From Clostridia bacterium (GTDB lineage Bacteria; Bacillota; Clostridia; Christensenellales; Borkfalkiaceae): a stretch of 64,000 nt of DNA. The DNA lies in the NCBI GenBank assembly GCA_017465865.1, contig JAFTVF010000012.1:26608-90607 (forward strand). The letters are read 5' to 3'. The position numbers and the translations under genes are program-made. Below the pieces are notes generated by a model, which searched no databases, had not been told where the DNA came from, and saw nothing but the letters and a program-made list of their open reading frames with translations. Of the stretch, positions 6,416 to 23,883 are shown in pieces. Every line of letters starts with the position of its first letter. Positions within the stretch are counted from its first letter, which is position 1.

Positions 6416-7378
6416 ATGAAACGAATCGGTTTATTGACGAGCGGCGGCGACGCGCCCGGTATGAACGCGGCGATCCGCGCGGTCGTTCGTTCGGGACTTT
6501 ATTTCGGAATGGAAGTTTTCGGGATCGAGCGCGGGTATTCGGGCTTGATGGAAGATAACGTCGTGCCTATGGAAATGCGCAGCGTGTCGAATATCGTACA
6601 GTGCGGCGGTACGAAGCTGCGTACGGCAAGATGCTTGGAAATGCTGACGAAAGAGGGTCAAAAGCAAGCGGTGGCAACCCTTGAAAAGCACGGCATCGAG
6701 GGGCTTGTCGTCATCGGCGGCGACGGTTCGTTCCGCGGCGCGAAAGTGCTCAGCGAGGAATACGGCGTGCCGACGATCGGTATCCCCGGCACGATCGACA
6801 ACGACTTGGAATATACCGATTATACGCTCGGCTTTGATACGGCGGTGAATACCTGTTTGGATATCATCAACAAGCTCCGCGATACGATGACCTCGCACGA
6901 GCGCGTTTCCGTCGTAGAGGTTATGGGCAGACATTGCGGCGACATCGCGCTTTACAGCGGTATCGCTTCGGGCGCGGAAATTATCGTCGTTCCCGAGATC
7001 GCGTTCGATATGGACGAGATCGTTATGCGTATCAACCGTTCCCGCGCCAACGGCAAACACTCGAATATTATCGTCGTAGCGGAGGGCGTTATGGACGCGG
7101 AGCAGTTCGCGCGGCAGTTGCAGTCGGTAACGAAGCACTCCGTTCGTCCTACCTGTATCGGGCACGTACAGCGCGGCGGTTCGCCCTCGATGGCAGACCG
7201 AATGCTGGCGGCACAGTTCGGGAATAAAGCGGTGCGGCTTCTCAACGACGGGCTTGGCAACCGCGTAGTCGGTATCCGCAACAACAAGATTATCGATATG
7301 GATATCATCGAAGCGGTATCTATGAAGAAAACTTTCAACTACGAACTGTATGAAACTTTGCAAATGATCTCTATGTAA
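6416..7378 (+). CDS. pfkA: ATP-dependent 6-phosphofructokinase
   Basis: A 320-residue enzyme phosphorylating fructose 6-phosphate to fructose 1,6-bisphosphate, the committed step of glycolysis. The family signature is complete: GGDAPGMNAAIRAVVR at the N-terminus, VIGGDGSFRGA, the catalytic PGTIDNDL, VEVMGRHCGDIA and GHVQRGGSP. Length matches the bacterial ATP enzyme. The start has AGAGG 8 bp upstream. It has its own promoter and is followed by a hairpin terminator, so it is probably monocistronic; pyk lies at 22-24 kb in the opposite direction instead of directly downstream as in many Firmicutes. Confidence 0.97.
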   Translation: MKRIGLLTSGGDAPGMNAAIRAVVRSGLYFGMEVFGIERGYSGLMEDNVVPMEMRSVSNIVQCGGTKLRTARCLEMLTKEGQKQAVATLEKHGIEGLVVIGGDGSFRGAKVLSEEYGVPTIGIPGTIDNDLEYTDYTLGFDTAVNTCLDIINKLRDTMTSHERVSVVEVMGRHCGDIALYSGIASGAEIIVVPEIAFDMDEIVMRINRSRANGKHSNIIVVAEGVMDAEQFARQLQSVTKHSVRPTCIGHVQRGGSPSMADRMLAAQFGNKAVRLLNDGLGNRVVGIRNNKIIDMDIIEAVSMKKTFNYELYETLQMISM

Positions 7379-7384
7379 CAGAAT

Positions 7385-7415
7385 AGACCGTTTTTTCAAA
7401 GCGGTCTTTCTTTTT
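7385..7415 (+). terminator. Intrinsic terminator after pfkA
   Basis: AGACCG (7385-7390) pairs with CGGTCT (7402-7407) across an 11-nt loop and is followed by TTCTTTTT. Confidence 0.7.
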
Positions 7416-7479
7416 GCGCGGTTTGGGTGAACGCTTAGAGAAAATTTTGTAAAAATAGGAAAAATTTTTCGTTTTGGTA

Positions 7480-7508
7480 TTGAAAAACGGAAAAAAGTGG
7501 TTTATAAT
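7480..7508 (+). promoter_or_regulatory. Predicted sigma-A promoter of the PfkB-family kinase
   Basis: TTGAAA at 7480-7485 and TATAAT at 7503-7508, separated by 17 bp, about 50 bp upstream of the start codon at 7561. Confidence 0.78.
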
Positions 7509-7560
7509 ATATTGTGTCAGAATAAAATGATTTGATAAGGCGGAAAAGGAGCACAGGCAA

Positions 7561-8484
7561 ATGGTATTGACGGTATGTATGAGTCCTTCCACGGACGTAA
7601 CGATCGAGCTTGACGCGTTGAACGTAGGGAAAACGAATATAGTCAAAAGCAAAACGATCACTTTCGGCGGAAAGGCTTTGAACGTTGCGATCGGGGTAAA
7701 AAGGCTGGGCGCGGATGCGTATACGACGGGCTTAATGTATAACGAAAACGGGTACACGTTCGAAAACGCGCTCGATAAAGAGGGCGTACCGTTTACTTTC
7801 GTTTGGAACAAAGGCCGCGTTCGCGAAAACTATAAATTCATCGACAACCGTTCGATGCTGACGGAAGTCAACGACGTAGGCGAAGAGGTCGGCAAGGAAA
7901 AGACGGAAGAAGTCCTCGGTATGGTCCGCATGCTCTCGGCGCGCAGCGGCGTTACCGTGTTATCGGGCGGCTTGCCCCGCGGCGTGGACGAAAACTATTA
8001 CGGCAAGCTCGCGCGGGCTGTGGATAAGCGATCGTTAAAAATCGTAGACGCGTCGGGGCAGCGTATGTTCTCCGCCTTAAACGAGGGGGTGGATCTTGTC
8101 AAACCCAACCTCGACGAGCTGGAAAATACCCTCGGCAGGCGCATTGCCGACAAAGAGGATATGCTGACGGCGTGTTACGAGCTTTTGGACCGCGGCGCAA
8201 AGCGGGTACTACTCTCGCTTGGAAAGCAAGGCGCGGTGATCACCGACGGCACGCAGAGCTATTACTGTAAGAGCCTCAACGTCGCGGTGAACTCGACGGT
8301 CGGCGCGGGCGACGGTATGGTCGCGGCGGCGGCGATCAAGCTGGAACAAGGCGCGCCTCTGCAAGAAATTTTGCGCGCGGGCGTTGCGGCGGGCACGGCA
8401 ACGGTGATGACGGTAGGAAAGCTGTCTTTTACCAAAGAAAAATATAACGAGGTGTGGAATAACCTGCACGTCAGTCAAATATAA
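7561..8484 (+). CDS. PfkB-family sugar-phosphate kinase, probably 1-phosphofructokinase
   Basis: A 307-residue ribokinase-fold kinase starting at ATG 7561 with AAAAGGAG upstream. It shows the glycine-rich substrate motif FGGKALNVAIGVKRLG and the C-terminal anion-hole/catalytic-base motif STVGAGDGMVA. Length and layout resemble FruK (1-phosphofructokinase) and LacC (tagatose-6-phosphate kinase). In those enzymes the first motif usually reads GGKGINV, here GGKALNV. No PTS fructose transporter or FruR-like regulator is next to it, so the substrate cannot be fixed. It is bracketed by its own promoter and a strong terminator. Confidence 0.85.
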   Translation: MVLTVCMSPSTDVTIELDALNVGKTNIVKSKTITFGGKALNVAIGVKRLGADAYTTGLMYNENGYTFENALDKEGVPFTFVWNKGRVRENYKFIDNRSMLTEVNDVGEEVGKEKTEEVLGMVRMLSARSGVTVLSGGLPRGVDENYYGKLARAVDKRSLKIVDASGQRMFSALNEGVDLVKPNLDELENTLGRRIADKEDMLTACYELLDRGAKRVLLSLGKQGAVITDGTQSYYCKSLNVAVNSTVGAGDGMVAAAAIKLEQGAPLQEILRAGVAAGTATVMTVGKLSFTKEKYNEVWNNLHVSQI

Positions 8485-9413: not shown

Positions 9414-9442
9414 TTGAGATTAGGAAAAAAGTATGATATAAT
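9414..9442 (+). promoter_or_regulatory. Predicted promoter of the 12-gene fumarate/Hdr operon
   Basis: TTGAGA at 9414-9419, TATAAT at 9437-9442, 17-bp spacing, TGA before the -10. It is the only good promoter seen before the gene run 9516-22034. A second one inside the operon cannot be excluded by eye. Confidence 0.75.
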
Positions 9443-9515
9443 AATATGCGTATGAATGCGTAAAAAAGGCGCGTATTGAAAGAATAAATAATTTACAGAC
9501 GGAGATATAAACATT

Positions 9516-10466
9516 ATGAACAACAAAGTTACTATCATCGGCGCGGGTTCGGTAGGTGCTACCGTTGCTTACACCCTGGTTGCAACGGGTTCGGTTGCGG
9601 AGATCGTACTCATCGACGTAAACGTGGACAAAGCGAAAGGGGAGGCGCTCGACATTCGTCAGGCGACGCCCTATCTTTCCCCTGCAAAAATTTATTGCGG
9701 TACGTACGAAGACGCGGTGGGGTCGGATATCGTTATCGTTACTTCGGGCGTGGGCAGAAAGCCTGGTCAGTCCCGTATCGATCTTACGCAGACGAACGTG
9801 AATATTTTGAAGAGCATTGCGCCTGAAATCGTAAAATACGCGCCCGACGCGCTGTATATTTTCGTTGCAAATCCCGTAGACGTGCTTACCTACGTATTCT
9901 GTAAGATCACGGGCGTACCCAAAAACCGCGTGATCGGCACGGGTACTACGCTGGACAGTATCCGACTTCGCACGCGGCTTTCCGAACTGTATTCGGTCAA
10001 TCAAAAACAAGTCCACGCGTACGTGCTCGGCGAACACGGCGACAGCTCGTTCGTGGCTTGGTCCACGGCGGACATTTCGGGTATCCCGCTCAAAGAATAT
10101 GAAAGCACCTTGACGGATAAGAGTGTTTTGACCGTTTCTCCCTACACCCACGAGGAAGTGGAGGAATACGTGAAGAAATCGGGCGGTCAGATCATCGCGG
10201 GCAAGGGCGCGACCTTCTACGGTATCGCGGCTTGCGTAACGCAGATCGTCAACAGTATTTATTCGAGCGCGTATACGATTTTGCCCGTATCCACCGTTCT
10301 CGACGGCGAATACGGCATTTCCGACGTAGCATTGTCTACGCTCTGCGCGATCGGTAACGACGGCGTGGTAACGACCCTTACGCCCAAGCTTTCCGACGAG
10401 GAAGTGAAAAAAATGAAACACAGTGCGGAAGTCCTCAAAGGGGTTATCGCACAGATCGATATTTAA
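9516..10466 (+). CDS. LDH/MDH-family NAD-dependent dehydrogenase, possibly malate dehydrogenase
   Basis: A 316-residue Rossmann dehydrogenase of the L-lactate/malate dehydrogenase superfamily: IIGAGSVGATVAYTL for NAD, catalytic LDSIR and GEHGDS. Overall it resembles L-lactate dehydrogenase. The substrate-discriminating position (Gln102 in LDH, Arg in malate dehydrogenases) is Arg81 here, in SGVGRKPGQSRIDL (codon 9756-9758). That, plus fumarase 18 bp downstream and fumarate reductase in the same operon, favours oxaloacetate-to-malate reduction. Against this, the rest of the sequence is LDH-like, and some LDH-annotated proteins also carry Arg there. First gene of the operon. Confidence 0.8.
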   Translation: MNNKVTIIGAGSVGATVAYTLVATGSVAEIVLIDVNVDKAKGEALDIRQATPYLSPAKIYCGTYEDAVGSDIVIVTSGVGRKPGQSRIDLTQTNVNILKSIAPEIVKYAPDALYIFVANPVDVLTYVFCKITGVPKNRVIGTGTTLDSIRLRTRLSELYSVNQKQVHAYVLGEHGDSSFVAWSTADISGIPLKEYESTLTDKSVLTVSPYTHEEVEEYVKKSGGQIIAGKGATFYGIAACVTQIVNSIYSSAYTILPVSTVLDGEYGISDVALSTLCAIGNDGVVTTLTPKLSDEEVKKMKHSAEVLKGVIAQIDI

Positions 10467-10484
10467 GAAAACGGAGAAAAGAAC

Positions 10485-11861
10485 ATGGAATACCGTATTG
10501 AAAAAGACACAATGGGCGAAATGCAAGTCCCTGCCGACAGATACTGGGCGGCGCAAACGCAGAGAAGTTATCAAAACTTCCGTATCGGCAACGAGATCAT
10601 GCCCCGCGAGATCACGCACGCGTTCGGGATCTTGAAAAAAGCGGCGGCGCTTGCCAACTGCAAACTCGGCAAACTCTCCGAAGCCAAGAAAAACGCCATC
10701 GCGGCGGCTTGCGACGAGGTGATCTCGGGCGAGCTGAACGGGCATTTCCCGCTCGTCGTATGGCAGACGGGCAGCGGTACGCAGTCGAATATGAACGCAA
10801 ACGAAGTCATTGCAAACCGCGGCAACGAGATCGCGGGCGAAAAGCTCCTGCATCCCAACGACGATATCAACAAGAGCCAAAGCTCCAACGATACTTTCCC
10901 GACGGCAATGCACATTGCGGCGGTGATCGCGATCGAGGATAACCTTTTCCCCGCAATGGATACGCTGATTGCGACCCTCAAACGCCTTGAAAAAGAAAAC
11001 GAGGGGATCGTCAAGAGTGGCAGAACGCATTTACAGGACGCAGTGCCTATTGCGTTCTCGCAGGAGATCAGCGGCTGGACGAATATGATTGAAAAGACGA
11101 AAGCCCAGCTTACGCTTACCCTTTCGGGACTGAAAGAGCTTGCGCTCGGCGGCACGGCGGTCGGCACGGGCTTGAACGCGCCCAAGGGCTTTGCGGAAGA
11201 GGTCGCGGCGCAGGTCAGCGCGCTTACGGGCAAGACGTTCGTAACCGCGGAAAACAAATACCACGCGTTGACCTCGAAAGACGAACTCGTCTTCGCGCAC
11301 GGCGCGTTGAAAGCGTTGGCTTGTAACCTGATGAAGATCGCAAACGACGTACGTTGGCTGGCAAGCGGGCCTCGCGACGGGCTTGGCGAGATCTTTATTC
11401 CCGAAAACGAACCGGGGTCTTCGATTATGCCGGGCAAGGTCAATCCCACGCAATGCGAATCGATGACGATGGTCGCCGTACAGGTCATGGCGAACGACGT
11501 CGCGGTGGGTATGGGCGCTTCGCAGGGCAATTTCGAGCTGAACGTATTTATGCCCGTGATTATTTATAATTTCCTGCAATCGGTGCGGTTGCTTGCCGAC
11601 GGTATCCGTTCGTTTGAACAAAATTGCGTAACGGGGATCAAGGCGAACAAGGAAAAAATGCACCATAACCTGTACAATTCCTTGATGCTGGTTACCGCGC
11701 TCAACCCGTATATCGGTTACGAGAACGCGGCGAAAACGGCGAAGAAAGCGTATAAAGAAAACATCTCTTTGAAAGAGGCTTGCGTTGCGCTGGGATTTTT
11801 GACGGCGGAAAAATTCGACGAAGTATTCCGTCCCGAAGAAATGGCGTATCCGCAGAAATAA
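10485..11861 (+). CDS. fumC: Class II fumarate hydratase
   Basis: A 458-residue member of the fumarase/aspartase superfamily, interconverting malate and fumarate without an Fe-S cluster. Visible are the N-terminal [13 protein letters not shown], the substrate-site [31 protein letters not shown], the [11 protein letters not shown] region and the signature [17 protein letters not shown] that holds the catalytic Ser loop. Aspartase has the same fold, but length, [10 protein letters not shown] and the neighbours (dehydrogenase upstream, fumarate reductase in the same operon) favour fumarase. It lies 18 bp after the dehydrogenase and 22 bp before the HdrB gene. Confidence 0.92.
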
Positions 11862-11883
11862 TGCAAAGGTAGCGAATAGTACT

Positions 11884-12663
11884 ATGAAAATCAGTTATTA
11901 TCCCGGCTGTACGCTGAGAACGAAAGCCAAGGACTTGGACGACACCGCCCGTCTTTGTGCAAAAGCGCTCGGCGTAGAAATGGAGGAAATCGAAAATTGG
12001 CAGTGCTGCGGCGCGGTATATCCGATGGCGACGGACGAGATCGCGACCAAGCTCTCGGCGGTTCGCGCGCTCGATTATGCAAAGCATAACGGCGGGAAAC
12101 TTTTAACGCTGTGCTCGGCTTGCCACAACGTGATCAAACGCACCAACGAGGATATGAAAACGAACGCGGATATCTGTTCCCGCGCGAATAATTATCTGAA
12201 ACTCGACGAGCCGTACAAAGGGGAAACGGAAGTGCTCCATTACCTCGAAATGCTGAAAACCGTCGTCGGCTTCGATACGATCAAAAAAGCGGTGGTCAAT
12301 CCCGTAAACCGCAAGATCGGCGCGTACTACGGTTGTTTATTGCTCCGCCCGAGCGGCGTTATGGCGTTCGATAACCCCGAAAACCCGACGATCATCGAGG
12401 ACTTTATCCGCGCGATTGGCGGTACGCCCGTCGTGTACCCGTTCCGAAACGAGTGTTGCGGCGCGTACGTGGCTTTGAAAAACAGCGAACTGCCCAAAGC
12501 AAAGAGTAAAAAAGTACTGACAAGCGCAAAGGAAAAAGGCGCGGAAGAAGTGATTACCGCCTGTCCGCTTTGCCTGTATAATTTACAGGTAAACGGCGAA
12601 AATATCCTGCCCGTGAGATACTTCACCGAGCTTCTTGCCGAGGCGTTGGGGGTGAAAGCATGA
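11884..12663 (+). CDS. hdrB: Heterodisulfide reductase subunit B-like (HdrB)
   Basis: A 259-residue protein with two complete CCG domains, each binding a noncubane 4Fe-4S cluster in HdrB: Cys9, Cys41-Cys42, Cys77, Cys80 and Cys151, Cys191-Cys192, Cys227, Cys230. In methanogens HdrB carries the disulfide-reducing site; in bacteria HdrB homologues sit in Hdr/Flx and other complexes with varied acceptors. Its last codons overlap hdrC (ATGA-type), so the two are translationally coupled. A nonmethanogen would not have CoM-S-S-CoB, so the partner here is open; the downstream fumarate reductase is the obvious candidate. Confidence 0.9.
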   Translation: MKISYYPGCTLRTKAKDLDDTARLCAKALGVEMEEIENWQCCGAVYPMATDEIATKLSAVRALDYAKHNGGKLLTLCSACHNVIKRTNEDMKTNADICSRANNYLKLDEPYKGETEVLHYLEMLKTVVGFDTIKKAVVNPVNRKIGAYYGCLLLRPSGVMAFDNPENPTIIEDFIRAIGGTPVVYPFRNECCGAYVALKNSELPKAKSKKVLTSAKEKGAEEVITACPLCLYNLQVNGENILPVRYFTELLAEALGVKA

Positions 12664-13046
12664 CGAAAGAAGAACGCATTGAAAATTTGAAAACGCTCAG
12701 CGGCACGGACGTAAGAAAGTGTATGAAATGCGGCAAATGCTCGGGGCGCTGTCCCGCTTTCAAGGACATGGATATCAAGCCCCACCAGTTCGTTTCCATG
12801 CTCGAAAAAGGCAAAATCGAAGAACTGCTCGAATGTAAAGCGATCTGGAACTGCCTTTCGTGTATGGCTTGCGTAGAGCGTTGCCCGCGCGGCGTTGCGC
12901 CTGCGGCGGTCGTGGAAGCGGTGCGCAGCACGGTGGTACGGGCGCAGGGTAAAAACGGGCTGAAAGCAGAGGATATCCCGCCGATCGTAGACGAGCTTAT
13001 TCCTCAGCAGCTCCTTGTCAGCGCGTACAGAAAGTATAACAAATAA
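12660..13046 (+). CDS. hdrC: Heterodisulfide reductase subunit C-like (HdrC)
   Basis: A 128-residue ferredoxin-like subunit with two classical 4Fe-4S motifs, CMKCGKCSGRCP and CLSCMACVERCP, in the helical arrangement of HdrC. It passes electrons between HdrA and HdrB. ATG 12660 overlaps the end of hdrB and hdrA starts 31 bp downstream, giving the order hdrB-hdrC-hdrA. No membrane segment is present, so the complex should be soluble. Confidence 0.9.
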   Translation: MTKEERIENLKTLSGTDVRKCMKCGKCSGRCPAFKDMDIKPHQFVSMLEKGKIEELLECKAIWNCLSCMACVERCPRGVAPAAVVEAVRSTVVRAQGKNGLKAEDIPPIVDELIPQQLLVSAYRKYNK

Positions 13047-13077
13047 TCGAAAAAATTAAAAAAAGAGAGTAGATAAA

Positions 13078-15069
13078 ATGCAAAGAATAGGTGTTTTTAT
13101 TTGTTGGTGCGGAAGTAATATTTCGGCGACGGTAGACGTAGTCAAGGTGGCGGAGGTCATCAAGAACGAGCCGGGCGTGGTGTATTCCGCAAACTATCAG
13201 TATATGTGCTCGGAAAACGGTCAACAGCTCATCAAGCAGGCGATCAAAGAGCATAACCTGACGGGCGTTGTCATCGGCTCGTGTTCGCCCAGAATGCACG
13301 AAGCGACGTTCCGCAAAGCGGCGGAAGAGGCAGGGCTGAACCCCTATATGGTAGAGGTTGCAAACATTCGCGAGCATTGCTCGTGGATTCATAAGGACAT
13401 GGACGAAGCGACGGAAAAAGCGTTGATCCTCGTCCGTACGGCGATCGCGAAAGTCAAGCTCAACGCACCGCTTACGGCGGGCGAAAGCCCCGTTATCAAG
13501 CGCGCGCTGGTCATCGGCGGCGGTATCGCGGGTATTCAGGCGGCTTTGGATATCGCGGACGCGGGCTTTGAAGTGGATATCGTGGAAAAGAACGCGACGA
13601 TCGGCGGGAGAATGGCACAGCTCGATAAGACCTTCCCCACGCTCGACTGCTCGGCTTGTATCCTCACGCCGAAAATGGTAGACTGCGCGCAGCATGAAAA
13701 GATCGACATTCTTTCCTATTCCGAAGTGGAAGAGGTGAAAGGCTTCGTCGGCAATTTCAGCGTAAAGATCCGCCGTAAGGCAAGATACGTAGACGAAACG
13801 AAATGCACGGGCTGTAAGGTTTGTATGGATAAATGCCCGTCTAAAAAAGGCTTGAACACCTTTAATATGGGCTTGAACACCCGTCCCGCGATCCATATCC
13901 CGTTCGCACAGGCGATCCCCAACGTAGCGGTGATCGACCCCGAACAGTGTATCAAGCTGAAAACGGGCAAGTGCGGTATCTGTCAGAAATTCTGCGGCGT
14001 GGGCGCGATCGATTACGAACAGAAAGACAGCTTTATCGAACGTCAATACGGCGCGATCGTCGTTGCGACGGGCTTTAAGCCGATCGAGCTTGACGCGTTC
14101 AACGAATACGGCTATAACGATAATAAAGACGTTATCACCTCGTTAGAGCTCGAAAGACTGATGAACGCGGCAGGACCTACGAACGGCGTTCTGCTCCGTC
14201 CCTCGGACGGCGAGCATCCGAAAGTCATCACGTTCATTCAATGCGTCGGCTCGCGCGATACCAGCGGTTGCGGCAAACCCTATTGCTCGAAGATCTGCTG
14301 TATGTATACGGCGAAGCACGCAATGCTCATTCGTGAAAAATACCCCGATACGGAAGTACACGTATTCTATATCGACGTGCGTACGCCGGGTAAAAACTAC
14401 GACGAATTTTTCCGCCGCGCGGTGGAACAGTACGGCGTGGACTATATCAAGGGTATGGTCGGCAAGGTCTATAACGAAAACGGCAAGCTGATGGTCCAAG
14501 GCTCGAACCTTATCGATAACGAACAGGTAACGATCGAGTCCGATCTCGTCGTGCTTGCGGCGGCGATCGAGCCCGAACCCTCGGTAAGAAAGGTAGCGAC
14601 CTTGCTGACGGCAAGCATCGACACCAACAACTTCCTCACCGAGAGCCACGCCAAGCTCCGTCCCGTGGAAAGCCCCACGGCGGGCGTGTACCTTGCGGGC
14701 GTATGCCAAGGCCCGAAAGATATCCCCGAAACGGTATCGCAGGCTTCGGCTTGCGCGGCAAAGGTTATCGGTCTGCTGGTAAAGGATAAATTGAAAACGA
14801 ACCCGTGCGTGGCAACGCCCGACGAGAGTATGTGTAACGGTTGCAGTCAGTGTGCGAACGTTTGCGCGTACGGCGCGATCACGTACGTGGATAAGGAATT
14901 CCGCCTCGGCGGCGGGAAGACGGAGATCCGTCGCGTAGCGAGCGTGAACCCTGCGGTATGTCAGGGCTGCGGCGCTTGTACGGTAACCTGTCCTTCGGGG
15001 GCTATGGACCTGAAAGGTTTCAGCTCCAAGCAAATCATGTCGGAGGTAGAAGCGATATGCAAGAAGTAA
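13078..15069 (+). CDS. hdrA: Heterodisulfide reductase subunit A-like (HdrA), bifurcating flavoprotein
   Basis: A 663-residue Fe-S flavoprotein. The N-terminal HdrA domain (residues 1-130) contains ICWCGSN and GSCSPRMHE; the thioredoxin-reductase-like FAD domain starts at VIGGGIAGIQAALD; TFPTLDCSACILTPKM is the HdrA-specific cluster region. Ferredoxin motifs appear internally (CTGCKVCMDKCP, CGICQKFCGVGA) and at the C-terminus (CNGCSQCANVCA, CQGCGACTVTCP). In characterised complexes the HdrA FAD splits electron pairs between a high-potential acceptor at HdrB and low-potential ferredoxin. The next gene starts inside its last 13 bases. Confidence 0.93.
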   Translation: MQRIGVFICWCGSNISATVDVVKVAEVIKNEPGVVYSANYQYMCSENGQQLIKQAIKEHNLTGVVIGSCSPRMHEATFRKAAEEAGLNPYMVEVANIREHCSWIHKDMDEATEKALILVRTAIAKVKLNAPLTAGESPVIKRALVIGGGIAGIQAALDIADAGFEVDIVEKNATIGGRMAQLDKTFPTLDCSACILTPKMVDCAQHEKIDILSYSEVEEVKGFVGNFSVKIRRKARYVDETKCTGCKVCMDKCPSKKGLNTFNMGLNTRPAIHIPFAQAIPNVAVIDPEQCIKLKTGKCGICQKFCGVGAIDYEQKDSFIERQYGAIVVATGFKPIELDAFNEYGYNDNKDVITSLELERLMNAAGPTNGVLLRPSDGEHPKVITFIQCVGSRDTSGCGKPYCSKICCMYTAKHAMLIREKYPDTEVHVFYIDVRTPGKNYDEFFRRAVEQYGVDYIKGMVGKVYNENGKLMVQGSNLIDNEQVTIESDLVVLAAAIEPEPSVRKVATLLTASIDTNNFLTESHAKLRPVESPTAGVYLAGVCQGPKDIPETVSQASACAAKVIGLLVKDKLKTNPCVATPDESMCNGCSQCANVCAYGAITYVDKEFRLGGGKTEIRRVASVNPAVCQGCGACTVTCPSGAMDLKGFSSKQIMSEVEAICKK

Positions 15070-15512
15070 CCACGGAAAAGAAAGAATTTACCCCGAACAT
15101 CGTGGCGTTTTGCTGTAACTGGTGTTCGTACGCGGGCGCGGACCTTGCGGGATCGAGCCGTTTGACCTATCCCGCGAACGTCAAGATCATTCGCGTACCC
15201 TGTTCCTGCCGCGTCAATCCCTCGTTCGTGCTCAAAGCGTTCCAGCAAGGCGCGGACGGCGTGATCCTTTGCGGTTGTCATCCCGGGGATTGCCATTACG
15301 TAACGGGCAACTACTATACGAGAAGAAGAATGTCTTTGCTGTTCAGCTTTTTGAACTATATGGGTATCGAAAAAGAACGTACCCGCGTGGAATGGGTATC
15401 CGCAGCGGAAGGTCAGCGTTTCTCCGCCGTTATGAACGATTTCGTGAAAACGGTTACGGAGCTTGGCGAAAACAAACGCCTTACCGACCTTCGCGTAAAG
15501 GAGGGCGAATAA
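15057..15512 (+). CDS. MvhD/FlxD-like 2Fe-2S electron transfer subunit
   Basis: A 151-residue protein starting at ATG 15057 inside the hdrA end, with GGAGG just upstream. It is an MvhD-type subunit (delta subunit of methyl-viologen hydrogenase, FlxD in bacterial Flx-Hdr complexes). Conserved marks are FCCNWCSYAGADLAG, RVPCSCRVNP and DGVILCGCHPGDCHY, whose Cys bind a 2Fe-2S cluster. It is the docking subunit that feeds electrons into HdrA from a hydrogenase, formate dehydrogenase or NADH module. No hydrogenase follows, but Flx-like genes do, pointing to NADH input. Confidence 0.9.
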   Translation: MQEVTTEKKEFTPNIVAFCCNWCSYAGADLAGSSRLTYPANVKIIRVPCSCRVNPSFVLKAFQQGADGVILCGCHPGDCHYVTGNYYTRRRMSLLFSFLNYMGIEKERTRVEWVSAAEGQRFSAVMNDFVKTVTELGENKRLTDLRVKEGE

Positions 15513-15513
15513 G

Positions 15514-16491
15514 ATGAAAGACGTTGAATTGAAAATGTTAGAGCGAGCGAAAGCGCTGCTTGAAAGCGGTGAAGTTGCGCGCGTGATCGGCTGGAAGAAA
15601 GGGGATTTCTGTTACGATCCCTCGCCCGCGAGCTTTGAAACGGTAGAGGAGTTGAACGGCTTCGTTTACGACTGGTTCTGCGGCGCGAATCTTTCCAAAT
15701 ACCTGATCGAAATGAGCAAGAAAGAGGGCAAAACGGCGGTATTTTTGAAGCCCTGCGACACGTACAGCTTTAATCAGCTCGTCAAAGAACACCGTATCAA
15801 GCGTGAAAACGTACACGTGATCGCCGTGGAATGTCTGGCGAAGCTGGATATCGAAAAGATCAAAGCCAAAGGCGTTTCCATGGTAACGGGCGTAGAGGTA
15901 ATCGGCAAAGAAGTCAAGGTTACGACGGCTTACGGCGAAGAAACGCTGAAAAAGCCCGAAGTGATCCTTACCAAATGCGAAACCTGTCAAAAGACCCATC
16001 AGGTAAAGGACGAGGAGATCATTCTCCACGACCGTCCCGAGCGCGACGTGGACCGCTTTGCGGAAGTTGCGAAACTCGAAGCGATGACGGCGGACGAACG
16101 GTTTGCGTTCTGGCGCGAACAGCTTTCGAAGTGTATCCGTTGCAACGCTTGCCGTAACGTATGCCCCGCGTGTTCCTGCGTGAAATGCGTATTCGACAAC
16201 CCCGCTTCGGGCATTGCGGCGAAAGCCAACGACGACAAGTTCGAAGAACAGCTTTTCCATATTATTCGCGCGTTCCACGTAGCGGGTCGTTGCACGGACT
16301 GCGGCGAGTGTTCGAGAGTATGCCCGCAGAACATTCCTCTGCACCTTCTCAACAGAAAATTCATTAAGGACATCGACGGACTGTACGGCGAGTATCAAGC
16401 GGGCGAGACCGCGGACGGTAAAACGCCGCTCACCTCGTATGCGGAAGCCGACGCAGAACCCAACGACGTCATGAAAGGGGAGGCGAAATAA
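15514..16491 (+). CDS. Flx-like Fe-S subunit with two C-terminal 4Fe-4S motifs
   Basis: A 325-residue protein 1 bp after the MvhD-like gene. The N-terminal half resembles the FrhB/FdhB-type fold (stretch VFLKPCDTYSFNQLVKEH and isolated Cys in AVECLAKL and TKCETCQKTHQ). The C-terminal half has CIRCNACRNVCPACSCVKC and CTDCGECSRVCP, two 4Fe-4S sites. Position and composition match one of the FlxB/FlxC subunits that link the NADH-oxidising FlxA to FlxD-HdrA. Which letter it should carry cannot be decided by eye. Stop and next start overlap (TAATG). Confidence 0.78.
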   Translation: MKDVELKMLERAKALLESGEVARVIGWKKGDFCYDPSPASFETVEELNGFVYDWFCGANLSKYLIEMSKKEGKTAVFLKPCDTYSFNQLVKEHRIKRENVHVIAVECLAKLDIEKIKAKGVSMVTGVEVIGKEVKVTTAYGEETLKKPEVILTKCETCQKTHQVKDEEIILHDRPERDVDRFAEVAKLEAMTADERFAFWREQLSKCIRCNACRNVCPACSCVKCVFDNPASGIAAKANDDKFEEQLFHIIRAFHVAGRCTDCGECSRVCPQNIPLHLLNRKFIKDIDGLYGEYQAGETADGKTPLTSYAEADAEPNDVMKGEAK

Positions 16492-17519
16492 TGTTCAAGA
16501 TTGCAAAAGAAAGATTAAACGAACTCTATGCCAAGATCAACGGACAAATGGGGCTTTTTATCCCCGTAAAAAAAGCGGGCGAAGTCAATTACGAGGTTTG
16601 GAGAGAGGGCAAAGAAGTATCTTTGGAAACGCTCAAAACGGTAAAATCCCCCAAGAATATGTTCTTCCCGCAAACGGAGAACATGATGAAGTTCAAAACC
16701 GAGGGCAAAAACCTCGAAATTATCGACGTACGCGGCGAAAAAAGACCGTTCGTGTTATTCGGCGTAAAAGCCTGCGATTATAAAGCGATTGAGGTTTTGG
16801 ATAAGGTATTCCTTGCCGATCCCGTAGACACCTATTATCAGTCGAGAAGAAACGCGACGACGATCGTAACGCTCGCATGCTCCAAGCCCGAAGAAAGCTG
16901 TTTTTGCAGCGTGTTCGGTATCGACGCGACCGCGCCTCAGGGCGACGTTACCACGTGGCTCGACGGTGAAAATCTGTACTGGCAGGCAAACACCGAGAAA
17001 GGCGAAACGCTTACCGCGCTCGTAAAAGACCTGTTTGCGGAGGGCGGAGAAGCGGAAGTAGAGGCGCAACAGACGGCTACCAAAACGATTATCGACAGCT
17101 TGCCGTTTGCTAATCTCGATCTCAGTAAGTTTAAGCCTGAAAATCTCAACGAATTGTTCAATGCGGCGGAGTGGCAGGAAATGAGCGAAGCGTGCCTTGG
17201 CTGCGGTACTTGTACGTTCGTCTGCCCGACCTGTCAGTGCTTTGATATTCGGGATTTCAAAACCAACGAGGGCGTTATCCGTTACCGTTGCTGGGATTCC
17301 TGTATGTATTCCGACTTCACGCTGATGGCGCACGGCAACAGCCGTACGACGCAGATGCAGCGTTTCCGTCAGAGATTTATGCACAAGCTCGTTTACTATC
17401 CCTCGCAGAACGACGGACTGTATTCGTGCGTGGGCTGCGGGCGTTGCGTGAATAAGTGTCCTCAGCGCCTGAATATCGTAAAAGTAATCAAAACGTTGGG
17501 AGGAAAAGACAATGACTAA
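16491..17519 (+). CDS. Flx-like 4Fe-4S dicluster subunit (AsrA/FlxB-like)
   Basis: A 342-residue protein similar in layout to AsrA (anaerobic sulfite reductase A) and FlxB. The N-terminal domain contains VLFGVKACDYKAIEVLDKVF and CSKPEESCFCSVFG; the C-terminal domain has CLGCGTCTFVCPTCQCF and CVGCGRCVNKCP for two 4Fe-4S clusters. AsrA-AsrB-like pairs accept electrons from NADH; here the AsrB/FlxA-like partner follows with an 8-bp overlap. No sulfite reductase catalytic subunit (AsrC) is present, so a sulfite role is unlikely. Confidence 0.82.
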   Translation: MFKIAKERLNELYAKINGQMGLFIPVKKAGEVNYEVWREGKEVSLETLKTVKSPKNMFFPQTENMMKFKTEGKNLEIIDVRGEKRPFVLFGVKACDYKAIEVLDKVFLADPVDTYYQSRRNATTIVTLACSKPEESCFCSVFGIDATAPQGDVTTWLDGENLYWQANTEKGETLTALVKDLFAEGGEAEVEAQQTATKTIIDSLPFANLDLSKFKPENLNELFNAAEWQEMSEACLGCGTCTFVCPTCQCFDIRDFKTNEGVIRYRCWDSCMYSDFTLMAHGNSRTTQMQRFRQRFMHKLVYYPSQNDGLYSCVGCGRCVNKCPQRLNIVKVIKTLGGKDND

Positions 17520-18339
17520 AGAAACTCTCATTCCCAAAATCGGCGTCGTTACGGATATCCGCAAGGATACCCCCGACGTAAAAACTTTCCGCGTCGTGGG
17601 TACGGACGGCAAAAAGCTCTTTCAGCACATGCCCGGTCAGTGCGCGATGGTTTCCATTCCCGGCGTCGGCGAGTGTATGTTCTCGATCACTTCTTCGCCT
17701 ACGAACGAAGAATATATGGAATTTTCCATTAAAAAATGCGGTTGCGTAACGGAAGTTATCCACGCGCTTGAAGTCGGCGCGCAGATCACCGTCCGCGGAC
17801 CTTACGGTAAAAACTTCCCCGTGGAAGAGGATTTCAAGGGCAAAGATCTGCTCTTTATTGCAGGCGGTATCGGGCTTGCGCCTTTGCGCAGCGTTATCAA
17901 TTACGTACGGCATTACCGCAGCAATTACGGCAAAGTCGTCATCGTATACGGCGCGAGAAGTAAAGATGACCTCGTAGATATCGAAGAAATCCAAACGGAA
18001 TGGATGAACGAGCCGAATATGGAGGTCTACCTCACGATCGACCGCCCGCAGGAGGGCTGGGACGGACACGTCGGGTTCGTGCCCGCGTACGTCAAGGAAT
18101 TAGGGCTTGATCCCAACATGACGGCGGTGCTTTGCGGACCTCCGATCATGATCAAGTTCACGCTTGCGGGGCTTTTGGAGCTTGGCTTTGAGAAATCCCG
18201 CGTGTACACGACGTTAGAGCTGCGTATGAAATGCGGCGTCGGCAAATGCGGCAGATGCAACGTCGGGGATAAGTTCGTATGCAAGGACGGCCCCGTATTC
18301 CGTATGACGGAGCTTGACGAGCTTCCCGATGAATATTAA
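17512..18339 (+). CDS. FlxA/AsrB-like FAD- and NAD-binding oxidoreductase
   Basis: A 275-residue ferredoxin-NADP reductase-fold protein. The flavin domain includes GECMFSITSSP, the nucleotide domain IAGGIGLAPLRSVINYV and VLCGPPIMIKFTL, and the C-terminus holds a 2Fe-2S motif, CGVGKCGRCNVGDKFVC. This matches FlxA of Flx-Hdr complexes and AsrB. Expected role: oxidise NAD(P)H with FAD and send electrons through the Flx Fe-S subunits to HdrA. NADH versus NADPH preference is not readable. It overlaps the upstream gene and is 12 bp from the next. Confidence 0.85.
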   Translation: MTKETLIPKIGVVTDIRKDTPDVKTFRVVGTDGKKLFQHMPGQCAMVSIPGVGECMFSITSSPTNEEYMEFSIKKCGCVTEVIHALEVGAQITVRGPYGKNFPVEEDFKGKDLLFIAGGIGLAPLRSVINYVRHYRSNYGKVVIVYGARSKDDLVDIEEIQTEWMNEPNMEVYLTIDRPQEGWDGHVGFVPAYVKELGLDPNMTAVLCGPPIMIKFTLAGLLELGFEKSRVYTTLELRMKCGVGKCGRCNVGDKFVCKDGPVFRMTELDELPDEY

Positions 18340-18351
18340 GGAGAAACCACA

Positions 18352-19026
18352 ATGGAAAAAATGGTAAACGTATATCTTTTCGGTAAACGCTATCAAGTAC
18401 CGGAAAGTCTGACGATTATGAAAGCGATGGAGTACGCGGGGTATCAGCTCGTACGCGGCTGCGGTTGCAGAAACGGTTTCTGCGGCGCATGCGCTACGAT
18501 CTACCGTATCCACGGCCAGCAAGAGCTGAAAAGCTGTCTTGCATGCCAACAGCAGGTAGAGGAGGGCATGTACGTAGCGACGTTGCCTTTCTTCCCGCTC
18601 GTAAAGAAAGTGTACGACATCAACGAGATCAAACCCACGCAACAGATCATGATGCAGCTGTATCCCGAGATCTATTCCTGTATCGGCTGTAACGCTTGCA
18701 CCAAGAGCTGTACGCAAGAGCTGAACGTTATGCAATATATCGCTTACGCGCAGCGCGGCGAATACGAAAAGTGCGCGGAAGAGAGCTTCGACTGCGTAAT
18801 GTGCGGCGTATGTTCTTCGCGTTGTCCTGCGGGCATTTCTCATCCGCAGGTAGCGGTGCTGGCAAGACGGCTTACGGGTAAATACCTTGCGCCGAAAACC
18901 GAGCATTTGATCAACCGTGTGGCGGAGATCGACGCAGGGGATTGCAAGGCGGCGTTGGAGGCGATTATGAACACGCCTTTGGAAGAACAAAAAAATCTCT
19001 ATAACCATAGAGAGATCGAGAAATAA
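18352..19026 (+). CDS. Iron-sulfur subunit of fumarate reductase (SdhB/FrdB-like)
   Basis: A 224-residue protein with an N-terminal 2Fe-2S ferredoxin-like domain (CGCRNGFCGAC then CLAC) and a C-terminal helical domain with CIGCNACTKSC and CVMCGVCSSRCPAG. This is the order of domains in SdhB/FrdB and in the N-terminal part of TfrB (thiol:fumarate reductase). TfrB additionally carries an HdrB-like CCG domain; here that domain is the separate HdrB gene of the same operon. It lies 11 bp before the flavoprotein. Likely role: carry electrons from the Hdr/Flx complex to the fumarate site. Confidence 0.82.
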   Translation: MEKMVNVYLFGKRYQVPESLTIMKAMEYAGYQLVRGCGCRNGFCGACATIYRIHGQQELKSCLACQQQVEEGMYVATLPFFPLVKKVYDINEIKPTQQIMMQLYPEIYSCIGCNACTKSCTQELNVMQYIAYAQRGEYEKCAEESFDCVMCGVCSSRCPAGISHPQVAVLARRLTGKYLAPKTEHLINRVAEIDAGDCKAALEAIMNTPLEEQKNLYNHREIEK

Positions 19027-19037
19027 GGAGGCGGCGT

Positions 19038-20642
19038 ATGTATCATTATACCGATGAACAACTTGAATCGATGAAAAAGGTAGAGGCTACCCGCGCTGCC
19101 CGTATCGAAAAACTCCACGCGCGTATGACTGCGGAAGAAAAAGACGCGGTTTTGGCAGAATTCCACCCCGATTATATCACTTCTGCGTATGAAGAACTCA
19201 AAGTCGGGAAAAATAAAGGCGGTAAGGTCTTGCACGAGCTTGCCGATCTGCTCCAAGGCCATTCCCGTATCAAGGATATGCAGATCGATCTTACGAAAAT
19301 CGACTACGACGTAGACGTGCTGGTTATCGGCGGCGGCGGCGCAGGCTCGTCTGCGGCGATCGAAGCGCACGAACGCGGCGCAAACGTCATGATCGCGACC
19401 AAGCTCCGTTTGGGCGACGCGAACACGGCGATGGCGGAAGGGGGTATTCAGGCGGCGGATAAGCCCAACGACAGCCCCGCAACGCATTATCTCGACGCGC
19501 TCGGCGGCGGACATTTCAAGAACAAGCCCGAGCTGTTGTATAAGCTCGTCAACGAAGCGCCCGAGGCGATTTTGTGGCTGAATAACCTTGGCGTTATGTT
19601 CGATAAAGAACCCGACGGCACGATGGTAACGACGCACGGCGGCGGTACTTCGAGAAAGCGTATGCACGCTTGCCGCGACTATTCGGGTTCGGAGATCATG
19701 CGTACGCTCCGCGACGAAGTATTCAACCGCGGTATCACCGTCGTGGATTTCACGGCGGCGATCGAGCTGATTAAAGATACCGACGGCAAGATCGCGGGCG
19801 CGGTGCTGATGAATATGGAAACGAAAGAGATCCTGATCGCGCGCGCGAAAACGGTCGTTATCGCAACGGGCGGCGCGGGCAGATTGCATTATCAGGGCTT
19901 CCCCACGTCCAACCACTACGGCGCGACGGCGGACGGGCTTGTGCTCGGCTACCGCGCAGGCGCGAAACTTTTGTATCCCGAAACCTTGCAGTATCATCCC
20001 ACGGGCGCGGCAGAACCTACCCAGATCTACGGCGCGCTCGTAACCGAAAAGGTGCGTTCGCTCGGCGCGCAGCTTGTCAATAAAGACGGCGAAGCGTTCG
20101 TGTATTCGTTGGAAACGCGCGACGTTACCGCTTCGTCGATTATCCGTGAATGCAGAGCAAACGGCAACGGTATCAAGACGACGGACGGCGAGGGCGTTTG
20201 GCTGGATACGCCGCTGATCGACATTTTGAACGGCGAGGGCACGATCGAAAAACGTATTCCCGCAATGCTTCGTATGTTCGGTAAATACGGCATCGATATC
20301 CGTAAAGAGCCTATCTTGATCTATCCCACGCTGCATTATCAAAACGGCGGTCTGGACATCGGCGCAAACGGTATGACGTGCGTGGAAAACCTCTACGTAG
20401 CGGGTGAAGCCGTCGGCGGTATTCACGGCACGAACCGTCTTATGGGCAATTCGCTTTTGGATATCATCGTATTCGGCAGAAACGCAGGTCAGCAGGCTGG
20501 CGAGAAATGCAAGAGCGTAGAACTCAAAGAACTCACGCTTTCGCACGTGGACGCGTTTGAGAAAGAGCTGGAAGAAGCGGGGATCGCTTCGGAGGTCTGC
20601 TCGCCTAAGCTCCTGCCCGATTACAGACGGCAGGCGAATTGA
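19038..20642 (+). CDS. Fumarate reductase/succinate dehydrogenase-family flavoprotein, soluble
   Basis: A 534-residue FAD protein with an unusual ~90-residue helical N-terminal extension before the dinucleotide motif VLVIGGGGAGSSAAIE. Active-site marks of FrdA/SdhA are present: YHPTGAAEPTQIYG, the KVRSLGAQLVNKDG Arg loop, PTLHYQNGGLDIG, and GGIHGTNRLMGNSLLD. The His that normally binds FAD covalently (in SHT-AA-GG) is Asn here (DANTAMAEGGIQ), so FAD should be noncovalent, as in L-aspartate oxidase. No membrane anchor subunit follows. With the Fe-S gene and fumC in the operon, fumarate reduction is the best call; aspartate oxidase is less likely. Confidence 0.87.
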   Translation: MYHYTDEQLESMKKVEATRAARIEKLHARMTAEEKDAVLAEFHPDYITSAYEELKVGKNKGGKVLHELADLLQGHSRIKDMQIDLTKIDYDVDVLVIGGGGAGSSAAIEAHERGANVMIATKLRLGDANTAMAEGGIQAADKPNDSPATHYLDALGGGHFKNKPELLYKLVNEAPEAILWLNNLGVMFDKEPDGTMVTTHGGGTSRKRMHACRDYSGSEIMRTLRDEVFNRGITVVDFTAAIELIKDTDGKIAGAVLMNMETKEILIARAKTVVIATGGAGRLHYQGFPTSNHYGATADGLVLGYRAGAKLLYPETLQYHPTGAAEPTQIYGALVTEKVRSLGAQLVNKDGEAFVYSLETRDVTASSIIRECRANGNGIKTTDGEGVWLDTPLIDILNGEGTIEKRIPAMLRMFGKYGIDIRKEPILIYPTLHYQNGGLDIGANGMTCVENLYVAGEAVGGIHGTNRLMGNSLLDIIVFGRNAGQQAGEKCKSVELKELTLSHVDAFEKELEEAGIASEVCSPKLLPDYRRQAN

Positions 20643-20678
20643 TAAGGCAAGATTGATGAAATATAGGAGAAATGTATT

Positions 20679-22034
20679 ATGGAGAATGAAAACAAAAAAA
20701 GCCGTAAATGGCTTTGGCTTACGATCGCTTTGGTCGTAGTCGCCGCAGTTGCCGTTTGGTGTGCGGTAAGCGCAAACAAGGCGAAAGGCGTAGAGGGAGT
20801 ATTCAAATTCAGTTCTACGTTCGTAATGTTTACGCTTGCTTTCGTGATACTTGCCCTCGGGTATCTGTTGGGCGGTATCAACATTAAAGGCGTATCGCTT
20901 GGTACGGCGGGCGTGTTTCTGGTTGCAATATTGCTCGGTTGGCTGTGTACGCTGGATTTTGCAAAAGTGCCTTTGCTTAGCAGTTTCCATATGACGAGCA
21001 CGGGCGACGCTGTCGTAAAGAATTTGAAAGGTCCTATCCAAAATTTAGGCTTAATTTTGTTCGTAGGTGCAGTCGGCTTTATCGCAGGTCCGAACTTTTT
21101 CAAAAATTTGGTGAAAAACTTTAAGACGTATATTTTGTTGGGCGCGATTATCATTTTAGCGGGTACGCTGGTCGCCGTACTTTGTATCCTTTTGACGGAC
21201 TACGGTTCGGAATATTGGGCAGGTATTTTGTCGGGTGCGCTTACGTCTACGCCAGGTTTCTCCGCGGCACAGGACGCGGCAACGGAAAATCTCGCGTTAA
21301 TCACGCTTGGGCATGCGATCGCATATCCGTTTGGCGTGGTCGGCGTCGTATTGTTCGTACAGTTAATGCCGAAGTTCTTAAAATCGGATATGGAGAAAGA
21401 ACGCGCGTTGTTGAAGATCGGCGCAGCGGAGGAAAAACGCGATTATTCGAAATATTTCCAATGCGAAAGTTTCGGTTTATTGCCGTTTTCTCTTGCCGTC
21501 GTTGCGGGTTTGCTTCTTGGTTCGATCAATATCCCTCTTACGGGAAAAGGCTATAACGGCGCTTGTTTCTCGCTTGGTACGACGGGCGGCGTATTGATTA
21601 TGTGTCTTGTATTCGGGCATTTCGGGCATATCGGCAAGCTCTCCTTAGAGGTGAACGAGCATACGTTAAAGGTGCTTCGTGAATTTGGTCTGGCTTTGTT
21701 CTTGCTCGGCGCAGGCTTTGAAGGCGGCGTTGCGCTCGTACAGGAAATCAAGAACGCGGGCGGCGCAGGAATCGTCGTATGGGGCTTCCTCGGCGGTGCG
21801 GTAATGACAGTATTCCCGATGATCGTTGGCTACGTATTCGGTCGGTATTTGTTAAAGCTGCCGCTTTTGAACAACTTGGGCTCGATCACGGGCGGTATGA
21901 CGAGTACGCCTGCGCTCGGAACGCTCATTTCGACGGCAAAGACGGACGACGTAGCCTCGGCATACGCTTCCACGTATCCGATCGCGCTGATTTTGATCGT
22001 ACTTGCTTCGCAGCTTTTAATTACGTTAATGTAA
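20679..22034 (+). CDS. AspT/SucE-family dicarboxylate exchanger-like membrane protein
   Basis: A 451-residue polytopic membrane protein with about ten hydrophobic segments in two repeated halves. Each half has a small-residue re-entrant stretch: ILSGALTSTPGFSAAQDAA and NLGSITGGMTSTPALGTL. The TSTP duplication is typical of the aspartate:alanine exchanger family, which contains AspT and the succinate exporter SucE. As last gene of a malate-fumarate-succinate operon, succinate export or dicarboxylate exchange is the natural guess. RBS AGGAG lies 10 bp upstream. The usual cytosolic TrkA_C domains between the halves are missing; a short charged loop (near residues 230-260) replaces them. Confidence 0.75.
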   Translation: MENENKKSRKWLWLTIALVVVAAVAVWCAVSANKAKGVEGVFKFSSTFVMFTLAFVILALGYLLGGINIKGVSLGTAGVFLVAILLGWLCTLDFAKVPLLSSFHMTSTGDAVVKNLKGPIQNLGLILFVGAVGFIAGPNFFKNLVKNFKTYILLGAIIILAGTLVAVLCILLTDYGSEYWAGILSGALTSTPGFSAAQDAATENLALITLGHAIAYPFGVVGVVLFVQLMPKFLKSDMEKERALLKIGAAEEKRDYSKYFQCESFGLLPFSLAVVAGLLLGSINIPLTGKGYNGACFSLGTTGGVLIMCLVFGHFGHIGKLSLEVNEHTLKVLREFGLALFLLGAGFEGGVALVQEIKNAGGAGIVVWGFLGGAVMTVFPMIVGYVFGRYLLKLPLLNNLGSITGGMTSTPALGTLISTAKTDDVASAYASTYPIALILIVLASQLLITLM

Positions 22035-22040
22035 AGGCAA

Positions 22041-22081
22041 TCCCCGTCGTATTTTAACGGATACGACGGGGAAATTTTTTT
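22041..22081 (+). terminator. Strong terminator ending the fumarate/Hdr operon
   Basis: CCCCGTCGTAT (22042-22052) pairs perfectly with ATACGACGGGG (22061-22071), loop TTTAACGG, followed by AAA and a run of seven T. Confidence 0.9.
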
Positions 22082-22476: not shown

Positions 22477-23883
22477 TTATATCGTTTCAACGTTGATAAG
22501 ATTAGAATTTCCGCTCTTGCCGTTCGGTGTACCGCCCGTGATGACGATGGTATCGCCTTTCTTTACCAAACCGCTCTTTTTTGCGATCTCTTTTGCGAAA
22601 TAGAACAGAATATCAATCGAAGTATATTCGTCTGCCATTGCGGGCAAAACGCCCCAACTCAGCGCAAGCTGCCGATAAGCGTGGATGTCCGTCGTGATCC
22701 CGATGATGGGGATATTCGGACGGAAACGGGAAACTTTCCGCGCCGTACCACCCGTCCGCGTGCATACGACGATCGCGCTCGCATTCAGATCCTTTGCAAG
22801 GGTCGCCGCGGAATGGGAAAGGGCTTCCGAGGTCGTTTCGATTTCGAAATTATCGATCGGTTGGATATATTCAATATGCTTTTCGGCGTTTTCGACGATC
22901 TTTGCCATCGCATTGACCGATTGAACGGGATATTCGCCCGCAGCGGTCTCGCCCGAAAGCATAACGGCGGACGTACCGTCGTATACGGCGTTTGCAACGT
23001 CGGAAATTTCCGCACGCGTCGGGCGGGGGTTGTGAATCATCGATTCCAACATTTCCGTTGCGGTAATCACTCGTTTTCCGTGGATACGGCACTGATCGAT
23101 GATATATTTTTGCACGTCAGGCAATTCCTCGTACGGTATTTCCACGCCTAAATCGCCTCGCGCGACCATAATCCCGTCGGAAACCTGCATAATGTCCAAC
23201 AAATTGTTTACGCCCGCACGGTTTTCAATCTTCGCGATCACGTCAATATGACTTCCGCCGTTCGCCTTTAAGAACTCTTTCGCGTCGATCACGTCCTGTG
23301 CTTTGGAAACGAAAGAAAGCGCAACAAAGTCCACTTCGTGCTCAATGCCGAATAACAGATCGGACTTGTCCTGCTCCGAAAGGAATTCGAGATGCAGCTC
23401 CTTGTCAGGGAAAAACATAGATTTACGGCTGGACAGCTCGCCGCCGATCTCGGTAATACAGTGCACGTTCGGCGCTTTCACTTCGGTTACGCGGAATACC
23501 ACAAGCCCGTTGTTCAGCAAAATCTTGTCGTTGGGCACGAGATCCTCGCAAATTCCTGCGTACGACACGCCAACGCGGGTGTTATCGCCCTCGATCTCTT
23601 CTGTCGTGAAAGTGAACGCGTCGCCTTTATTCAAACGGATTTTGCCGTCTTTGAAAGTCTTAATGCGAAACTCAGGACCTTTCGTATCCAAAAGAATGGG
23701 CAGGGGAAGCTGCTTTTCATCGCGCACTTCTTTAATCATCTTGATCTTCTTTGCATGGTCTTCGTGCGTGCCGTGGGAAAAGTTCAGGCGAACGACGTTC
23801 ATACCCGCTTCCGCCATCTCCGAAAACACTTCTTTGTTTTCGCTGGCAGGGCCGATCGTGCAAATGATTTTCGTTTTTTTCAT
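22477..23883 (-). CDS. pyk: Pyruvate kinase
   Basis: A 468-residue enzyme converting PEP and ADP to pyruvate and ATP. Motifs: TKIICTIGPAS and NVVRLNFSHG at the N-terminus, ILLDTKGPEFR, IAKIENRAGV with the catalytic Lys, MVARGDLGVEIP, and TATEMLESM. The C-terminal allosteric domain ends with ITGGTPNGKSGNSN. It lacks the extra PEP-utiliser domain that Bacillus and many Clostridia pyruvate kinases carry (about 585 residues), so it is the short form. RBS GAGGAG precedes the start. It is divergent from rnpB and bracketed by its own promoter and terminator. Confidence 0.96.
   Translation of the reverse strand: MKKTKIICTIGPASENKEVFSEMAEAGMNVVRLNFSHGTHEDHAKKIKMIKEVRDEKQLPLPILLDTKGPEFRIKTFKDGKIRLNKGDAFTFTTEEIEGDNTRVGVSYAGICEDLVPNDKILLNNGLVVFRVTEVKAPNVHCITEIGGELSSRKSMFFPDKELHLEFLSEQDKSDLLFGIEHEVDFVALSFVSKAQDVIDAKEFLKANGGSHIDVIAKIENRAGVNNLLDIMQVSDGIMVARGDLGVEIPYEELPDVQKYIIDQCRIHGKRVITATEMLESMIHNPRPTRAEISDVANAVYDGTSAVMLSGETAAGEYPVQSVNAMAKIVENAEKHIEYIQPIDNFEIETTSEALSHSAATLAKDLNASAIVVCTRTGGTARKVSRFRPNIPIIGITTDIHAYRQLALSWGVLPAMADEYTSIDILFYFAKEIAKKSGLVKKGDTIVITGGTPNGKSGNSNLINVETI

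Follow-up and report, generated by a model that had tools for sequence, protein, structure and literature searches.

The usual picture of fumarate reduction is one of membrane respiration with quinol. In a 64,000-nucleotide stretch of contig JAFTVF010000012.1 (hereafter the window), from an uncultured Clostridia lineage, twelve adjacent genes place a malate-fumarate-succinate branch beside a soluble Hdr-Flx electron module, which raises the question of what reaction they carry out together. The host is a draft genome of 1.42 Mb, 73% complete; among named records, its closest are genomes assembled from ruminant and chicken gut metagenomes. Judging from its genes, the operon probably specifies a quinone-free, soluble, bifurcating fumarate reductase, together with the enzymes that would feed it and an exporter. 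An initial annotation had proposed that NADH is oxidised, with fumarate accepting electrons and ferredoxin being reduced, and this is the best-supported reading of the gene set.

All 12 open reading frames of the annotated operon were confirmed, with families as named. They lie on the + strand and span 9516-22034, neighbouring frames being -19 to +36 bases apart; with the FlxD start placed at 15057, the overlap with hdrA is 13 bases, the largest in the operon. The features, in window coordinates, are the following.

9414..9442, + strand: promoter-like site TTGAGA-17-TATAAT with extended -10 (11/12 sigma-70-like match, TG ahead of the second hexamer)
9516..10466, + strand: dehydrogenase of the lactate/malate dehydrogenase (LDH/MDH) family, malate-type (Arg81, family models)
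10485..11861, + strand: class II fumarase FumC (TIGR00979, 732 bits, cut-off 664.75)
11884..12663, + strand: HdrB, with all ten cysteines of its two CCG (non-cubane cluster) sets
12660..13046, + strand: HdrC, two [4Fe-4S] motifs (family models, conserved motifs)
13078..15069, + strand: HdrA, the flavin (bifurcating) subunit, with ferredoxin domains both inserted and at the C-terminus (694 bits to 5odc_A)
15057..15512, + strand: FlxD, MvhD/FlpD-like (PF02662, 189.6 bits; ATG at 15057, GGAGG upstream)
15514..16491, + strand: FlxC-like Fe-S protein (family models; name taken from its position in the operon)
16491..17519, + strand: FlxB-like Fe-S protein, AsrA / sulfhydrogenase beta-like (clear family match)
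17512..18339, + strand: FlxA-like FAD/NAD-binding subunit, AsrB / sulfhydrogenase gamma-like (clear family match)
18352..19026, + strand: FrdB-like protein, [2Fe-2S] and two full CxxCxxCxxxC motifs (family models, motifs)
19038..20642, + strand: FrdA-like flavoprotein, extended at the N-terminus and short at the C-terminus, its FAD expected to be non-covalent (family, residues, clade)
20679..22034, + strand: AspT-family (AspT/YidE) transporter, candidate succinate/dicarboxylate exporter (family matches)
22041..22080, + strand: rho-independent-type terminator, 14-pair stem plus T-run

A promoter-like site and a strong terminator were found at the edges given in the initial annotation. Overall, the promoter scan gave 8 sites versus a mean of 10.9 in shuffles, i.e. 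no excess, so the operon promoter is a good, well-placed match but not proof; the terminator scan gave 31 sites versus a mean of 19.8.

How firmly do these genes belong together? A scan of named genomes gave 403 relatives, and 80 loci were kept; the core gene order was identical in all 80, as far as the contigs extend. Among the 54 loci with at least 9.6 kb of DNA upstream of frdA, HdrB, HdrC, HdrA, FlxD, FlxC, FlxB, FlxA and FrdB were each present in 54/54, FumC in 51/54 and MDH in 34/54, so that the expected co-location in related genomes holds for the core. One of the carriers is a named strain, Eubacterium coprostanoligenes ATCC 51222 (L084). A survey of the class (392 genomes, host included; FrdA at E 1e-60, HdrA at E 1e-100) returned 56 FrdA matches: the host, 54 genomes with identities of at least 63%, and G278, whose 37% match is NadB. 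The 58 HdrA matches were the host, 54 genomes that also carry FrdA, and three at 43-48% identity, which have no FrdA. Orthologues of both proteins were therefore found in 55/392 class genomes, host included, a count that covers related species, not independent of one another, so that a hypergeometric value for the co-occurrence cannot be read as a probability. The distance between HdrA and frdA was at most 4.2 kb in 48 of the 54 genomes, and in the other 6 the two were on separate draft contigs. A conserved separate partner of HdrB elsewhere had been named as one finding that would speak against the proposal. It is unsupported in the class, where a close HdrA was never seen without FrdA (54/54), DsrC-like and thiol partners not having been searched for. 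With its core complete, its order kept in relatives and HdrA and FrdA co-occurring, the twelve-gene set is far beyond chance.

Is the electron module of the FlxABCD-HdrABC kind? The solved methanogen HdrA (5odc_A) aligns over almost the entire HdrA, and the ferredoxin-motif cysteines are conserved in the aligned relatives. Both HdrC cluster motifs are intact in every aligned row, and the ten CCG cysteines of HdrB are kept in 57/57 and 27/27 rows; a pattern with strict CCG spacing finds neither HdrB set, and one with slightly wider spacing finds both. The domains of HdrA, the cluster sets of HdrB and HdrC, four Flx subunits adjoining hdr, a FlxA with FAD and NAD domains and a FlxD of MvhD type are all present, the protein between FlxD and FlxB being taken as FlxC from its position. 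The gene set, the cofactor ligands, the catalytic residues and the linkage are all conserved.

For the working of the complex we infer NADH as donor, bifurcation, direct contact of HdrB with FrdB, operation towards succinate, its export, and a sink for ferredoxin. The first enzyme would make malate by reducing oxaloacetate, itself probably formed via GTP-dependent phosphoenolpyruvate carboxykinase (PEPCK); FumC would then dehydrate malate to fumarate, which FrdAB would reduce to succinate. FlxA would accept the hydride of NADH and electrons would pass via FlxBCD to the HdrA flavin, where the pair would be split, one electron going to ferredoxin and the other through HdrC, HdrB and FrdB to FrdA. 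FrdAB would dock onto HdrBC, an arrangement resembling a thiol:fumarate reductase divided into separate proteins. Succinate would leave via the AspT-type carrier, and a hydrogenase would reoxidise the reduced ferredoxin. The net reaction would be 2 NADH + fumarate + oxidised ferredoxin -> 2 NAD + succinate + reduced ferredoxin.

The potential of ferredoxin is commonly taken as -420 mV. A published abstract gives -500 mV, and the accessible part of PMC5861303 gives +33 mV for fumarate/succinate and -320 mV for NAD, a gap which leaves room to reduce ferredoxin. The computed net energy is -49 kJ/mol for a ferredoxin potential of -420 mV and -33 kJ/mol for one of -500 mV. If the scheme is true, quinone-free fermenters would save part of the fumarate/NADH gap as reduced ferredoxin, and extra hydrogen or other ferredoxin-driven work would be gained alongside succinate, from which other microbes of the gut make propionate.

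The methanogen protein TfrB, together with the repeated neighbourhood, suggests how electrons would pass from HdrB to FrdB. Segments 19-99, 125-219 and 262-465 of TfrB match, successively, the FrdB (E 2e-9), HdrC (E 1.5e-6) and HdrB (E 4.2e-10) of the window; by these alignments TfrB unites FrdB and HdrB in one naturally fused protein. The cysteines of the FrdB motifs are conserved in all aligned rows save C37 (36/39, second set) and the variable C62. The same electrons might travel by way of a thiol: Hdr-Flx would reduce a disulfide, either of a low-mass thiol or of a DsrC-like protein, and FrdAB would reoxidise the dithiol, with no need for contact between HdrB and FrdB. HdrB does retain its full complement of CCG cysteines, Flx-Hdr is described as an electron source for ferredoxin and thiols in the accessible part of PMC7282089, and a DsrC-like path is allowed by what could be consulted of the Endoriftia paper. 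However, the operon has a single HdrB-type protein, its FrdB lacks a CCG domain of its own for thiol oxidation, and it holds no gene for a thiol partner, the remaining genome not having been searched for one. We consider the thiol route unlikely. The stronger form of the direct proposal is that FrdAB docks on HdrBC with no thiol, that the whole forms one soluble NADH:fumarate/ferredoxin bifurcating complex serving many Clostridia of the gut as a main path to succinate, and that the FrdA family, with its long N-terminal extension, truncated C-terminus and non-covalent FAD, is a distinct class of fumarate reductases specialised for docking on Hdr; for this form we find the case evenly balanced.

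Is the flavoprotein a fumarate reductase? Residues H233, T245, E246, R288, H356 and R391 of E. coli FrdA (numbered from Met1), whose roles we take to be catalysis and substrate binding, are kept in 50/50 rows, one T-to-S change aside. M244 and S394 are not matched in the family, and likewise not in E. coli SdhA. The histidine of covalent FAD attachment is replaced by Asn in 50/50 rows. A membrane quinol:fumarate reductase (FrdABCD) was rejected on this replacement and on the lack of membrane-anchor genes in the operon, no search for them in the remaining genome having been made. TfrAB proper was also set aside: TfrA is the best NCBIfam match of FrdA (347.8 bits) and falls under its curated cut-off of 718, and TfrB is matched only partially, by separate proteins. 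An L-aspartate oxidase for NAD synthesis, the placement that the initial annotation had named as speaking against its reading, has in its favour a score of 273 bits with the general NadB model, below the cut-off of 452.75. By phylogeny the FrdA family forms its own clade, on one side of a branch with 100/100 support, separate from NadB, whereas L196-L198, NadB-like proteins from this genus, group in the NadB clade. At the position of Glu121 of NadB, which we use as a presumed marker of L-aspartate oxidases, the 50 FrdA rows have Gly in 48 and Ala in 2. That identity was rejected as extremely improbable.

For the carbon branch, the dehydrogenase scored above two L-LDH NCBIfam cut-offs (349 bits, cut-off 339; 340.5 bits, cut-off 303.55) and also above that of a malate dehydrogenase subfamily (290.6 bits versus 283). 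The residue at what we take to be the specificity site, Arg for malate and Gln for lactate, is Arg (R81, motif GRKPG), not the Gln of L-LDH, and it is Arg in 49/49 relatives aligned there (120 loci given). The first enzyme is therefore likely a malate dehydrogenase, and the family of the last gene points to a likely exporter of succinate or another dicarboxylate; both genes are thus specified further than in the initial annotation. The AspT family takes in SucE1, the succinate exporter of C. glutamicum, according to the accessible part of PMC9527358. Two types of AspT carrier were observed in near-identical operons (26 loci, L013-L038, FrdA at least 93% identical): identity to the window copy is 43-49% in 14 and 70-84% in 12, and the carrier seems to have been swapped between them. 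Within the genus, GTP-PEPCK is present in 38/41 genomes, ATP-PEPCK in 0/41, and an [FeFe]-hydrogenase above cut-off in 21/41. Glycolytic genes lie on both sides of the operon (6416-8484 and 22477-23883): 6-phosphofructokinase, a 1-phosphofructokinase-like hexose kinase and, on the opposite strand, pyruvate kinase.

How far does the association extend beyond the class? A survey of 398 genomes of the phylum (FrdA at E 1e-60) gave 59 matches including the host, 39 others being at 52-64% identity and 19 at 35-43%; the family at 52% or more is thus found in 40/398 genomes, host included. Twenty stretches were taken from 19 of the 39 genomes. In these the arrangement varies: FrdB and FrdA (FrdBA) may adjoin Hdr genes, HdrB/HdrC among them, in a number of distinct orders, or have none beside them. 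Eight of ten tested neighbours of FrdBA matched a family, some below cut-off: class I fumarase (two subunits), malic enzyme, pyruvate carboxylase, succinate-CoA ligase, CoA-transferase (two) and aspartase; the other two gave no family match. The succinate-CoA ligase and CoA-transferase beside FrdBA in some relatives, and the reversibility of the chemistry, would suit operation in reverse, in which reduced ferredoxin would drive succinate oxidation with formation of NADH (confurcation). In the window, however, the glycolytic flanks, FumC, the malate-type dehydrogenase and a carrier of the succinate-exporter family, along with GTP-PEPCK in the genus, make this reading highly improbable.

HdrA was sought at E 1e-40 in 27 deeper genomes (26 of the 39, plus G303 of the class) and was present in 23. 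At the 20 HdrA loci kept, FlxD and FlxC adjoin in 20/20 and HdrB and HdrC in 19/20, the single exception beginning at a contig end. In G718, G514, G794 and G511 (L161, L144, L164 and L177), FrdA of the family was found and no HdrA at E 1e-40; with 4/27 such genomes, FrdBA can use another donor. These genomes, and the fact that coupling is invisible in sequence, would be compatible with a plain NADH:fumarate reductase, a soluble complex acting on fumarate with no coupling to ferredoxin. Against it, the HdrA of the window matches its methanogen counterpart over nearly the full length and keeps the cysteines of the ferredoxin motifs, and we regard it as very unlikely. L161 and L164 share a 1144-aa frame adjoining frdB, pyruvate carboxylase in L161. 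G533 has two FrdA copies of the family (L171 and L172) ~90 kb apart, with no recognised FrdB alongside the second (L172). The HdrA frames of L248, L250, L251 and L254 each contain one in-frame TGA, possibly selenocysteine.

Several observations weigh against a bifurcating complex with direct transfer to FrdB. In the 73% complete host genome PEPCK was not found, and the hydrogenase match there is only sub-cut-off (168 bits). The window HdrA scores 796 bits with the HdrA2 model, under its cut-off of 1100, and the methanogen-based cut-offs are not reached by HdrB (131.9/345) or HdrC (61.9/160); the same is true of FrdA with TfrA. HdrC matches TfrB in a generic two-cluster manner, as FlxC weakly does too, the two CCG sites of HdrB are not obviously needed in direct transfer to FrdB, and the predicted structure of FrdB was too poor for use. 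In some deeper genomes FrdBA and Hdr-Flx are unlinked, and four lack a detected HdrA. No enzymatic proof of coupling was found in the literature consulted, subscription papers being mostly outside reach.

Away from the operon, a 1352-aa frame at 35114-39172 (+) carries carbamoyl-phosphate synthase large-chain and then diaminopimelate epimerase domains with no internal stop, an apparent CarB-DapF fusion. In an 845-aa protein at 29030-31567 (-), a PadR-type DNA-binding domain close to the start precedes, in the part inspected, a Glu/Ser/Leu-rich stretch that looks like coiled coil.

How does the operon compare with known systems? FlxABCD-HdrABC of Desulfovibrio vulgaris, reportedly linked to ethanol metabolism by Ramos et al. 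in 2015, presumably consists of the same seven gene families as in the window, a thiol partner being assumed there. The methanogen thiol:fumarate reductase TfrAB, said to have been described by Heim et al. in 1998, resembles the window in that TfrA tops the NCBIfam matches of FrdA and TfrB spans FrdB, HdrC and HdrB. In the window, by contrast, the parts of TfrB are separate proteins, NADH and ferredoxin modules are added, and FrdA differs from TfrA by an N-terminal extension and the absence of most of the C-terminal region. Hdr-Flx feeding TfrAB has been proposed for tubeworm symbionts; as in the window, Hdr-Flx of these symbionts and Thioflavicoccus may hand electrons directly to a Tfr-type fumarate reductase, whereas there the genes stand with KorABCD in the reverse TCA cluster of autotrophs and the proteins are termed TfrAB homologues (PMC6315080, PMC11636981, in their accessible parts). 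The closest description is that of the 'succinate operon' of Pseudoclostridium thermosuccinogenes (CDQ83_RS03315-RS03365), with fumarate hydratase, Flx-Hdr, a two-gene fumarate reductase and a putative succinate transporter in one operon, a GTP-PEPCK route, and a fumarate reductase assumed to be linked to ferredoxin (PMC7282089, accessible part). That operon was expressed ~4-fold higher under CO2 limitation, not significantly for all subunits, and it and its reaction are also credited to a 2019 preprint (reference 15 of PMC7282089). Unlike the window's host, P. thermosuccinogenes is a thermophile, and no malate dehydrogenase is named in its operon in the part of the paper available; the likeness is drawn from the published description, all four components of that operon having counterparts in the window. 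The idea of NADH-dependent fumarate reduction coupled to ferredoxin reduction is thus already published (2019-2020), and since it is in print for P. thermosuccinogenes the window operon extends a known proposal. The present analysis adds its breadth, the near-perfect association in the class, the exclusion of NadB, the unusual architecture of FrdA, the presence of a malate-type dehydrogenase among the operon genes and the finding of FrdBA without HdrA.

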